From NCBI GenBank assembly GCA_020846885.1, contig JADLDC010000055.1:1-32541 (forward strand): a DNA stretch of 32,541 bases, given 5' to 3'. Position numbers and translations under genes: made by a program. The stretch is from Acidobacteriota bacterium (GTDB lineage Bacteria > Acidobacteriota > Blastocatellia > Pyrinomonadales > Pyrinomonadaceae). The notes under the pieces were generated by a model, which worked only from the letters and a program-made list of their open reading frames with translations, was not told where the DNA came from and searched no databases. Shown here piece by piece: positions 27,228-30,960 of this stretch; position 1 is the stretch's first letter, and each line of letters begins with the position of its first letter.

Positions 27228-27632
27228 ATGCACAACAGAAAGATAAGAGTACTTGTTGCAAAGCCCGGCCTCGACGGGCATGATCGCGGAGCAAAAGTAA
27301 TCGCACGCGCGCTGCGTGACGCCGGTATGGAGGTGATCTATACAGGGCTTCGGCAAACACCGGAGATGATCGCGACCGCTGCGCTGCAGGAAGATGTCGA
27401 CGCGGTCGGCATCTCGATACTTAGCGGCGCACATCGAACATTGTGTCCTCGCATCGTTGATCTGCTTCATCAAAATGGAATGACCGACACACTCGTTCTT
27501 GTCGGCGGCATCGTTCCCGAAGAGGACATCGCGCAGTTGAAAGAGAATGGTGTATCGGAGGTATTTCTGCCCGGCACTTCGACTGAAGATATTGTCACCT
27601 TCATCAACGCGAACATCCGTGCGCAAAATTAG
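27228..27632 (+). CDS. Cobalamin-binding (methylmalonyl-CoA mutase C-terminal/small) subunit
   Basis: [64 protein letters not shown]12 motif DxHxxG, 134-aa standalone domain. Confidence 0.93.
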
Positions 27633-27892: not shown

Positions 27893-28306
27893 ATGTCAGC
27901 TAAGAAAAAAGTTATGGAAACAAAAACCTCATTTGCAGATGCGAGCGCTTCGCTCACAAGTGTTGCCGATGTTGCCGCGATGGCGGTAAAGAAAGCGGCG
28001 GCGAAACCGGCAGCAAAAAAAGCTGCTACGAAATCCGCGGCAAAGCCTGCGGCAAAGAAGGCGGCGGCTAAACCCGCTGCGAAGAAAGCAGCGGCAAAGT
28101 CGTCTGCTAAACCCGCGGCCAAAAAAGCTGCCGCAAAGCCGGCGGCGAAGAAAGCTACGGCGAAAGCCGCTGCTAAACCTGCGGCAAAGAAAGCCGCGGC
28201 TAAACCCGCTGCTAAAAAGGCGGCTGCGAAACCGGCTGCGAAGAAAGCGGCGGCTAAGCCCGCTGCAAAGAAACCGGCTGCCAAATCAGCGGCCAAGAAA
28301 AAATAA
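27893..28306 (+). CDS. Histone H1-like Lys/Ala/Pro-rich repeat protein
   Basis: Preceded by ttggagg RBS. KKAAAKPAA repeats from 27989 to the end, very basic, no hydrophobic core. Confidence 0.85.
   Translation: MSAKKKVMETKTSFADASASLTSVADVAAMAVKKAAAKPAAKKAATKSAAKPAAKKAAAKPAAKKAAAKSSAKPAAKKAAAKPAAKKATAKAAAKPAAKKAAAKPAAKKAAAKPAAKKAAAKPAAKKPAAKSAAKKK
27989..28303 (+). repeat. Degenerate tandem repeat encoding 9-aa and 13-aa KKAAAKPAA-type units
   Basis: Units parse as 9,13,9,13,9,13,9,9,9,9 residues. Confidence 0.85.
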
Positions 28307-28313
28307 CCTTGAT

Positions 28314-28349
28314 GCGGCGTTGAAGAAATTCGACGCCGCTTTTTCTTTT
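28314..28349 (+). terminator. Intrinsic terminator of the histone-like gene
   Basis: gcggcgttgaa-gaaa-ttcgacgccgc (11-bp stem, one G-U, GAAA loop) followed by tttttctttt. Confidence 0.9.
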
Positions 28350-28473
28350 GGACGGATTTTCACAGCTCAAGCCTTGCCGTTTGTTTTCGTCAGCCGCTCG
28401 CCAGACCCAACAAGTTCACTCGCTCCTGATCACACCATTGCAAATCATTCATCCGTTTGATTAGAATCGGAGA

Positions 28474-28836
28474 ATGATCAAATTAAACAACGTGAATAGC
28501 GCTGGCCGATCGGAAGTTCTGCGGCCGGTAGTGGCAAAGAAGATTACGGCTATCGCGCTTGCTGCGCTGATGATGGTCTCGTTCGTCTTTATCGACAATT
28601 CGATCTCGCCGTCCGGCAGCTCGTTCGCCGCACAGGCACAGACCGTCACCGCAAAGCGGCGTAAGAAAGGCATTATTCGCAAGAGCTACGCCGGAGGAAA
28701 ATGGGTTACACGAAAAGTGTGGCGCGGCGGCAAATGGGTCACAGTCAAAACCTGGAAAGGGACAAAATGGGTAGGCAAAAAATCATGGCGTACAGGCCGT
28801 AAGGTTGTCAGCCGAACGAAGAAGGTCGTTTACTAA
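28474..28836 (+). CDS. Small basic exported protein with three 11-aa Trp/Lys repeats
   Basis: 120 aa. Hydrophobic signal-like N-terminus, then AGGKWVTRKVW / RGGKWVTVKTW / KGTKWVGKKSW. Confidence 0.75.
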   Translation: MIKLNNVNSAGRSEVLRPVVAKKITAIALAALMMVSFVFIDNSISPSGSSFAAQAQTVTAKRRKKGIIRKSYAGGKWVTRKVWRGGKWVTVKTWKGTKWVGKKSWRTGRKVVSRTKKVVY

Positions 28837-28865
28837 TTTTTATGCGCGCGGTCATCGATTGATAT

Positions 28866-28899
28866 GGGCGTTGCTGAAATGCAAACGCCCTTTTCTTCT
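28866..28899 (+). terminator. Intrinsic terminator
   Basis: gggcgttgc-tgaaat-gcaaacgccc hairpin (one bulge) followed by ttttcttct. Confidence 0.75.
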
Positions 28900-29027
28900 A
28901 TCTGCACGGCGACCCTGCCCAGTCGCTAACCGATCGTCCTGTTGAGAGGGCGCTGGCACGATACATGCATACTTATTCGTATCGGGATTCGGATAAGAAA
29001 GTCGAATCGACGATCAGGGAGGAACTT

Positions 29028-29444
29028 ATGAAAATACGGAGTTTAGCAGGTATCGGCTTGTTCTTTGGAATTGTACTATTTTCGTGCGTTACCGCCGAGG
29101 CGCAGGTCGTCGAGGTTGTAAAGGATGCAGCGTCAGCAACCAAAAAGATCTCGAAAAAGACCGCAAATGTGGTTGCGGATGGTGCCGTGCAAGCAGCCGA
29201 CACAACCGCCGACCTCACTGTCGGTGCCGCAAAAAAGACCGGATCGGTCTCGAAAAAGATCGGCAAATATACCGTTAATGTGACTGAAAATGTGGCTGGT
29301 GCAGCCTATGAAGGCGGAAAATATTTTACGGTCAAAACCTGGGACGGCACGAAATGGGTATCGAAACGGGTCTGGTTCGCGACAAAAAAGGCGGCCGACG
29401 CAACGAAAGACTTCGTCGTCGGTGACGGTGAAAAGAAGCCGTAA
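29028..29444 (+). CDS. Small exported protein sharing the 11-aa Trp/Lys repeat
   Basis: ATG at 29028 preceded by agggaggaac. Signal peptide MKIRSLAGIGLFFGIVLFSCVTAEAQ; repeats EGGKYFTVKTW / DGTKWVSKRVW. Confidence 0.8.
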   Translation: MKIRSLAGIGLFFGIVLFSCVTAEAQVVEVVKDAASATKKISKKTANVVADGAVQAADTTADLTVGAAKKTGSVSKKIGKYTVNVTENVAGAAYEGGKYFTVKTWDGTKWVSKRVWFATKKAADATKDFVVGDGEKKP

Positions 29445-29476: not shown

Positions 29477-29521
29477 GGATGGTCAACCAACGGTTCGGTT
29501 GTTGACCGTCCATTTTTTTTG
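29477..29521 (+). terminator. Intrinsic terminator
   Basis: ggatggtcaaccaac / gttgttgaccgtcc hairpin (imperfect) followed by an 8-9 nt T-tract. Confidence 0.8.
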
Positions 29522-29538: not shown

Positions 29539-30960
29539 ATGAAACAAACAGTTCGTGTTGCGGGCGGTCAGGGGTTTTGGGGCGATCTTTTGACGGCGCC
29601 GATCGACCAGGTTCGAAAAGGGCCGATCGATTATTTGATGCTCGACTATCTCGCCGAGGTAACGATGTCTATTCTGCAAAAGCAGCGAAATCGTGACCCG
29701 CAAGCCGGATATGCACGCGATTTTATTTCGCTGATGCAGGAAATACTTCCCGACTGCGTTGAGAAGAATATCAAGGTCCTATCAAACGCGGGCGGCGTAA
29801 ATGTTGCGGGCTGTGCGGAGGCAATTCGACATGCCGCCGTCGAACTTGGCCTGCAAGGCAAAGTGAAGATCGGCGTTGTGACCGGCGACGATGTTCTTGA
29901 TCGGCTCGACGGCTGGATCACCGATGGGATCGAGATCAATTCGATGGACGACGGAACGCCGCTCGCCGCGATCCGCGACAAGGTTCAGGCGGCAAACGTT
30001 TATCTCGGTGCCGAAGCTCTTGTGGAAGCGCTCGGGCGCGGAGCAAGCATCATCGTCGGCGGACGCCTGACCGACACTGGCCTCACCCTCGCACCGCTGA
30101 TGCATGAATTCGACTGGTCGTTCGACGATTGGGACAAGGTCTCGGCCGGCACTATCGCCGGACACATCATCGAATGCGGTGCCCAATCGAGCGGCGGAAA
30201 TTGTCAGTACGATTGGCAAAACATCCCAGACATGGCGAACATCGGATTTCCGATCATCGAAGCCTCACCCGACGGCACATTAATTGTCACAAAACACGAA
30301 GGCACCGGCGGCCGCGTCAATGTTCAGTCCGTCACCGAACAGCTTCTCTACGAAATGGGCGACCCGAAAGCCTATATCACACCCGATGTCGTCGCTGATT
30401 TTTCTTCTATCAATTTAGAGGCTGCAGGCGAAAACCGCGTCCGCGTTTTTGGCATCAAGGGCAACCCGAAAACTGATTTCTATAAAGTCTCGATCGCCTA
30501 TTCCGATGGCTGGAAGTCGGTCGGCACACTGGTCTATTCGTGGCCCGACGCACTTGAAAAAGCACAGGCCGCCGACAAGATCTTGCGTGAAAGATTAGAG
30601 CGATTGGGTTTGAAATTCGATTTGATCCTGACCGAATTCGTCGGCGTCAATGCGACTCACGGGCACCTCGCTCACAGCTCCCCTCGATGGGAGGCCGCCG
30701 CTTCGGCCGGCGGCGCGGCTCTCTCTTCGGGCACGACTCCTGACTATCCCGAGGCCCAGCTCCGCGTCGCTGTCCGCGGCCACGACCGCGCATCCGTCGA
30801 ACGCTTCACCAAAGAGATCGCGCCGCTCATCCTGACCGGCCCTCCCGGTGTAACAGGCTTCGCAGGCGGCCGTCCCAAGGTAGAAGAGATCATGGCCTAC
30901 TTCCCGGCGCTGATACCGAAGTCACTGATCCAAACCAAGGTCGATATTGTCGGGGCATAA
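29539..30960 (+). CDS. Acyclic terpene utilisation AtuA-like (DUF1446) family protein
   Basis: 473 aa. [84 protein letters not shown]. Confidence 0.88.

Follow-up and report, generated by a model that had tools for sequence, protein, structure and literature searches.

The DNA analyzed here, a stretch of 32,541 nucleotides from a member of the Acidobacteriota (hereinafter, the window), encodes two adjacent small proteins, A and B, that are predicted to be exported and that, by their sequences, are related neighbors built of 11-residue units almost throughout. With their homologs, these proteins make up an exported, cationic 11-mer family in which B appears to be controlled by sigma54 and which is best read as an envelope coat or protectant, a reading to which we give a rough probability of 45%. 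The family is unnamed, conserved, under selection and linked to sigma54, and belongs to a poorly studied phylum; a literature search found no publication on this exported 11-mer family. The features of the locus are listed in Table 1.

Table 1. Features of the A/B locus (window coordinates; B is cut at the Trp anchor)
Feature	Position	Strand	Remarks
B12-binding mutase subunit	27228..27632	+	left syntenic neighbor
Sigma70-like promoter, TTGCAA-18-TAGAAT	28438..28467	+	upstream of A; 9/12 matches
Gene A, basic 11-mer repeat protein	28474..28836	+	120 aa, predicted to be exported
A, KGIIRKSYAGG	28666..28698	+	degenerate first unit, in register
A, KWVTRKVWRGG	28699..28731	+	Trp/Lys unit
A, KWVTVKTWKGT	28732..28764	+	Trp/Lys unit
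A, KWVGKKSWRTG	28765..28797	+	Trp/Lys unit
A, RKVVSRTKKVV	28798..28830	+	C-terminal degenerate unit; terminus kept in relatives
Terminator-like hairpin, GGGCGTT...AACGCCC-TTTTC	28866..28897	+	3' of A; 11-nt loop; not called by scan
Putative sigma54 -24/-12 promoter, CTGGCACGATACATGCA	28953..28969	+	60 nt before the start of B; score 22/23 against consensus
Gene B, helical 11-mers followed by Trp 11-mers	29028..29444	+	138 aa, predicted to be exported
B, KDAASATKKIS, KKTANVVADGA, VQAADTTADLT, VGAAKKTGSVS, KKIGKYTVNVT, ENVAGAAYEGG	29121..29318	+	six non-Trp 11-mers
B, KYFTVKTWDGT, KWVSKRVWFAT	29319..29384	+	two Trp units
B, KKAADATKDFV	29385..29417	+	C-terminal 11-mer
Terminator between B and AtuA	29477..29520	+	13-bp stem, 8 T
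AtuA family	29539..30960	+	right syntenic neighbor

Two kinds of 11-residue unit in one register

All five units of A share one 11-residue register, and the last of them is followed by a single final tyrosine. The sequence-only reading had recognized three Trp units and a decayed fourth; these are indeed present, together with one further degenerate unit upstream. The lag-11 self-similarity of mature A (z=6.3) is not reached at any lag up to 25 in any of 20,000 shuffles, and lag 11 is also the strongest period of mature B (z=4.7, p=0.0003 over all lags, 20,000 shuffles), in agreement with the period originally claimed for the Trp/Lys repeat of both proteins. The cationic-aromatic character that had been attributed to the repeat is borne out by the isoelectric point of 12 and the charge of about +25 of A, and the signal-peptide-like N-termini of both proteins are consistent with the export that had been proposed. 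A GTG at 28531 was considered as a downstream start of A and dropped; the codons aligned there in the related locus L033 are GTT TGT. For B, ATG 29028 is the likely start rather than that of a longer frame. Recent tandem duplication at the DNA level was likewise rejected for the units of A: any two of them have 5-8 identical residues, with a shared codon in 4-5 only, so that on this small test the units are not fresh copies.

The part of B that lacks Trp is 11-periodic on its own (best lag 11, z 3.6, p=0.013 over all lags), and its register is the same as that of the Trp units of B. Within their own genome, A and B match each other at E 6e-6, and no other copies were found in the (incomplete) assembly. 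The two proteins had been described as sharing a portable module in otherwise unrelated sequence. Given that the non-Trp part of B is itself an 11-residue array in the register of the Trp units, and that A matches B, this description does not hold: the proteins that carry the Trp/Lys unit are not unrelated, and the unit is not a portable module.

Among the homologs, the residues differ and the 11-residue period is kept: the strongest period is 11 or 22 residues in 57 of the 58 members, and 11 ranks second in the remaining one. When scored on the common positions K1, K6 and T7, the best register (shift 0) is common to 11 of the 18 B-type proteins, that of the window included, against 1.6 expected with random phases, a count that is not a formal probability because these proteins are related by descent. 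The register differs in the other seven, six of which have shifts of 4 or 7 residues, about the size of one or two helical turns. In A-type proteins, the number of units varies and the conserved C-terminus usually stays in register, which indicates that length mostly varies by whole 11-residue units. The slot proteins of four loci (L102, L103, L116 and L130) consist of GSKATASGVKK 11-mers that look intermediate between the helical and the Trp units.

Predicted folds and comparison with known families

The hydrophobic power at 98 degrees (98.2) per residue amounts to 49% of the total in the helical units of B and to 8% in the Trp units. The N-terminal units of the B-type proteins accordingly classify as tandem 11-mer amphipathic 11/3 helices, and the Trp units do not. 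Most of the hydrophobic power of the Trp units lies at 65 and 131 degrees (harmonics 2 and 4), so these are not simple amphipathic helices, which does not in itself prove beta structure. The turn sequence of the Trp units is x-G-[G/T/S]-[K/R], flanked by W or Y on both sides in 111 of 145 turn sites; when positions are counted from the Trp/Tyr after the turn, in 134 turn sites, an aromatic residue occupies -5 in 81% of cases and +6 in 73%. The motif W-x-G-[G/T]-K-W is laid out like a tryptophan-zipper hairpin, and if the strands form an antiparallel meander whose turns are two residues long (G-[G/T]), every Trp would be paired with a Trp of the next strand. The AlphaFold model of A contains predicted hairpin strands at residues 76-84 and 87-95, the extents of which fit the pairs W83:W88 and W77:W94 predicted for the two-unit stretch KWVTRKVWRGGKWVTVKTWKGT. 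The mean pLDDT is 56 for A, rising to about 79 at the center of the hairpin block, and 38 for B; comparison of these weak models with the folds in the PDB gave no match at E<=0.001. A beta-rich module had been suggested; a beta hairpin is predicted, with modest confidence, for the Trp units of A.

The designed peptide trpzip2 contains the sequence W-E-N-G-K-W. The predicted hairpin of A resembles a tryptophan zipper in having Trp pairs around a four-residue turn (W-R-G-G-K-W in this case) but, unlike the designed peptides, A would be a naturally occurring array of tandem units that has two Trp ladders. Trp/Lys hairpins are also a feature of the choline-binding repeats of the LytA type; the choline-binding repeat is about 20 residues long, and the period here is 11. 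On micelles, the Trp-containing hairpin of a LytA repeat peptide becomes a helix (PMC4471590). In Pfam, neither A nor B matched a choline-binding family at E<=1, and no SH3b match was detected for either protein in Pfam or, with the weak model, by fold. Both families had been put forward as possible identities that would undo the novelty of the repeat; neither was matched by A or B, nor does a named repeat of this kind appear among the 25 commonest of the 41 families that are weakly matched by members.

No significant match for the repeat proteins was found in Pfam, NCBIfam, PADLOC or the PDB sequences, and in these resources the repeat is unnamed, as had been anticipated. The subthreshold matches mostly point to helical 11-mers. 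The commonest match of the B profile in the PDB was alpha-synuclein residues 10-89, which are collinear with B (best E 0.02, not significant); the Synuclein family (PF01387) did not match A or B and was matched by 3 of the 42 members (best E 0.022); the relative L108A scores 13.9 bits against a cut-off of 23.3. LEA_4 (PF02987) reached at best 19.1 bits (E 0.0012, cut-off 51.1), in one relative, and matched neither A nor B, and weak matches to Senescence and ApoLp-III occur among the relatives. Archaeal histone and flavodoxin matches of the B profile (E about 0.01) were set aside as noise caused by helix composition. Like synuclein and perilipin, the N-terminal units of B have an 11-residue period, are rich in Lys, Thr, Ala and Val, and combine a weakly hydrophobic 98-degree face with KTKE-like motifs; unlike synuclein and perilipin, A and B are bacterial, carry predicted signal peptides for export and contain Gly-Lys-Trp units. 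Group 3 LEA proteins (LEA_4) share with B the helical 11-residue repeats of Ala, Lys, Thr and Asp, and Trp units are not known to be part of LEA_4. The likeness to synuclein, LEA and perilipin probably reflects convergence of low-complexity sequences.

The Asr proteins are comparable with A and B in being exported, very basic and repetitive; Asr is not known to be an 11-mer protein. By analogy, A and B could be disordered basic chaperones or charge buffers of the periplasm that act through net charge on their clients, with the Trp units as hydrophobic stickers. The small size, predicted export, strong basicity, repetitiveness and low pLDDT of A and B agree with such a role, and the NCBIfam Asr model (NF033636) weakly matches 6 of the 42 members (best E 0.0004). 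This match was not reproduced in the six members that were re-scanned and is lacking for A and B, and the strict 11-residue register with fixed Trp and Gly positions implies an ordered spacing that a charge buffer does not need, so that we regard this explanation as unlikely. E. coli Asr itself is reported to be exported and basic and to act in the periplasm as a disordered chaperone that helps to preserve the integrity of the outer membrane (PMC10746267).

Chromosomal slot, selection and promoters

Clear family members are present in 37 of the 41 searched genomes of the window's genus; no member was found in three of these genomes (G015, G021 and G031), and a fourth, G030, has a weak partial match. 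The family is also represented in 8 further genera, nearly always in one slot, with the gene order cobalamin (B12)-binding mutase subunit, A, B, AtuA. The inspected members (genera g1, g21, g22, g23, g31, g32, g38 and g46) lie between the mutase subunit and AtuA and share their orientation, the g22 contig ending before AtuA; in g33, a member is found about 5 kb away from AtuA, and the mutase subunit is absent. In G021, the mutase subunit and AtuA are about 70 nt apart and the slot is empty of a repeat gene; given that one species lacks the genes, A and B are dispensable. In other families of the class, AtuA is preceded by different genes. The range examined comprises 396 genomes of the phylum, in which matches at 1e-4 are restricted to the window's Acidobacteriota family and one other genus (f16/g83), where the matching proteins are exported and have units like GTKKAYHKTAE and no Trp unit. 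By sequence comparison in these genomes, the family is restricted to a single Acidobacteriota family, apart from the looser relatives in this other genus. The proteins of that genus (L154-L158) are exported 11-mer proteins of the GTKKAYHKTAE / GTKTAADKTAD type that look synuclein-like. Class-wide profile matches in families f2, f6 and f7 were rejected as members, having no Trp unit or lying in other frames. A near-exact-pattern genome scan with A identified one named relative, Acidobacteriota bacterium KLAP106, and searches of plasmids, phages and viral contigs gave no match. With A and B as related neighbors at one syntenic locus, this distribution too is at odds with a portable module. The lack of conservation that had been named as a possible objection to the repeat is not observed, and copy-number variation, which was to be looked for, is seen in the number of units of A-type proteins.

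Strong purifying selection acts on mature A. When the window is compared with L033, dN is 0.007 and dS 1.29 in the mature part, with dN 0.28 in the signal region; dN/dS is about 0.08 overall and about 0.01 in the mature part; all computable whole-gene ratios fall within 0.01-0.08, and several of the dS values are saturated, so the exact ratios should not be over-read. The same slot contains, at 27893-28306 on the + strand, a gene for a 137-residue Ala/Lys/Pro-rich, histone-H1-like protein with AAAKPAAKK repeats; this gene has its own strong terminator (28314-28339) and, among the slots read, was seen only in the window and L033.

The element CTGGCACGATACATGCA upstream of B is the sole site in the window that scores at least 21 against the sigma54 consensus. 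A site scoring at least 19, with the -12 GC located 45-67 nt 5' of the start, precedes 22 of the 23 scored B-type genes (the exception is L063), compared with a background of 0.004 sites scoring at least 21 per 250 nt (1.05 Mb of searched loci, both strands, the B sites counted in). The conservation of this -24/-12 element at a near-constant distance, along with the presence of rpoN in the window's genome, suggests that B is a sigma54-dependent gene. Most A genes of the genus lack such an element; sigma54-like sites are present at the A genes of L094, L098 and L100. No activator palindrome upstream of the sigma54 site is common to the set, and the inverted repeats found upstream of this site in B mostly belong to the terminator of A, which in many genomes directly abuts it. 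The sigma70-like promoter of A has a readable equivalent in L033 (TTGGAA-18-TAGAAT). In A, 6 nt separate the -10-like TAGAAT from the ATG (28462-28474), and the mRNA may be leaderless. Terminator-like hairpins occur 3' of 24 of the 42 members, compared with 5% of shuffled tails. Given these terminators and their own promoters, A and B look like separate transcription units, so that no functional link with the flanking metabolic genes has to be assumed; the mutase and AtuA neighbors give no hint to the function of A and B.

A candidate coat or protectant of the envelope

The combination of predicted export, the two kinds of unit and the putative sigma54 control of B leads us to infer that A and B bind and protect the cell envelope, probably at a periplasmic or cell-surface location. 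After the signal peptide, each mature chain would consist largely of in-register 11-residue units of two kinds: Lys/Ala/Thr/Val units that could form an amphipathic alpha-helix of weak hydrophobicity, like those of synuclein, perilipin and LEA proteins, and Gly-Lys-Trp units in which the Trp residues that flank x-G-[G/T]-K turns could form cross-strand pairs, as in a tryptophan zipper. The chain may be largely disordered until it contacts the envelope, where the helical units would lie along a surface of phospholipid or LPS and the chain would be anchored by its Trp/Lys hairpins through interfacial Trp and the attraction of cationic Lys to acidic head groups. It would thus serve as an envelope coat or protectant and perhaps also as a charge-based periplasmic chaperone, with B switched on by sigma54 and an activator, A transcribed from a sigma70-like promoter, and each gene forming its own transcription unit. 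Amphipathic 11-mer helices of the perilipin type are coats of lipid surfaces (PMC5889406), and sigma54 shows a statistical association with the bacterial exterior and with lipid and LPS genes, and often controls exopolysaccharide and surface genes (PMC3162934).

The sigma54 connection to exopolysaccharide and surface genes would also fit a matrix or surface adhesin that binds an acidic extracellular polymer, such as exopolysaccharide, the LPS core or DNA, in which Trp would stack on sugars or bases and Lys would contact phosphates or carboxylates. Such a binder could make use of the cationic-aromatic ladders, and the stepping of the number of A-type units by whole 11 residues is seen in many surface repeat proteins. 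Given, however, that no carbohydrate-, choline- or peptidoglycan-binding model is among the matches listed, that no sorting or outer-surface signal was seen and that the helical units of B are left unexplained, polymer binding seems improbable; it is, together with the Asr-like chaperone, the main rival of the envelope reading. Still less probable is self-assembly into an amyloid-like, cross-beta envelope fiber through stacking of the hairpins, with the helical units representing the soluble form: the beta-prone Trp units are in register, B resembles alpha-synuclein across its seven 11-mers and the repeat number is variable, but the very high like charge of A opposes stacking and the slot contains no curli-like partner genes. 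A secreted Trp/Lys-rich bacteriocin, which the short, cationic mature chain could bring to mind, is extremely improbable, considering that nearly all species keep A and B in one slot under strong purifying selection, without a recurring partner that could be an immunity gene, without plasmid or phage copies and without a PADLOC match.

A further, more specific scenario is that a single 11-residue register has diversified from synuclein-like, lipid-binding helical units into tandem tryptophan-zipper units, yielding a chain that switches between a membrane helix and a beta meander in the acidobacterial envelope, partly under sigma54 control. We consider this scenario doubtful. If the in-register transition from helix to hairpin is real, the family would provide a naturally occurring tryptophan zipper in tandem form and a bacterial counterpart of the synuclein and perilipin 11-mers, and would bear on the way in which a single repeat register can specify two folds.

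Elsewhere in the window, at the contig start (102-407), there is an open frame with short SASVKVP/SASVKVV repeats, which could be a repeat at the DNA level and not a gene.
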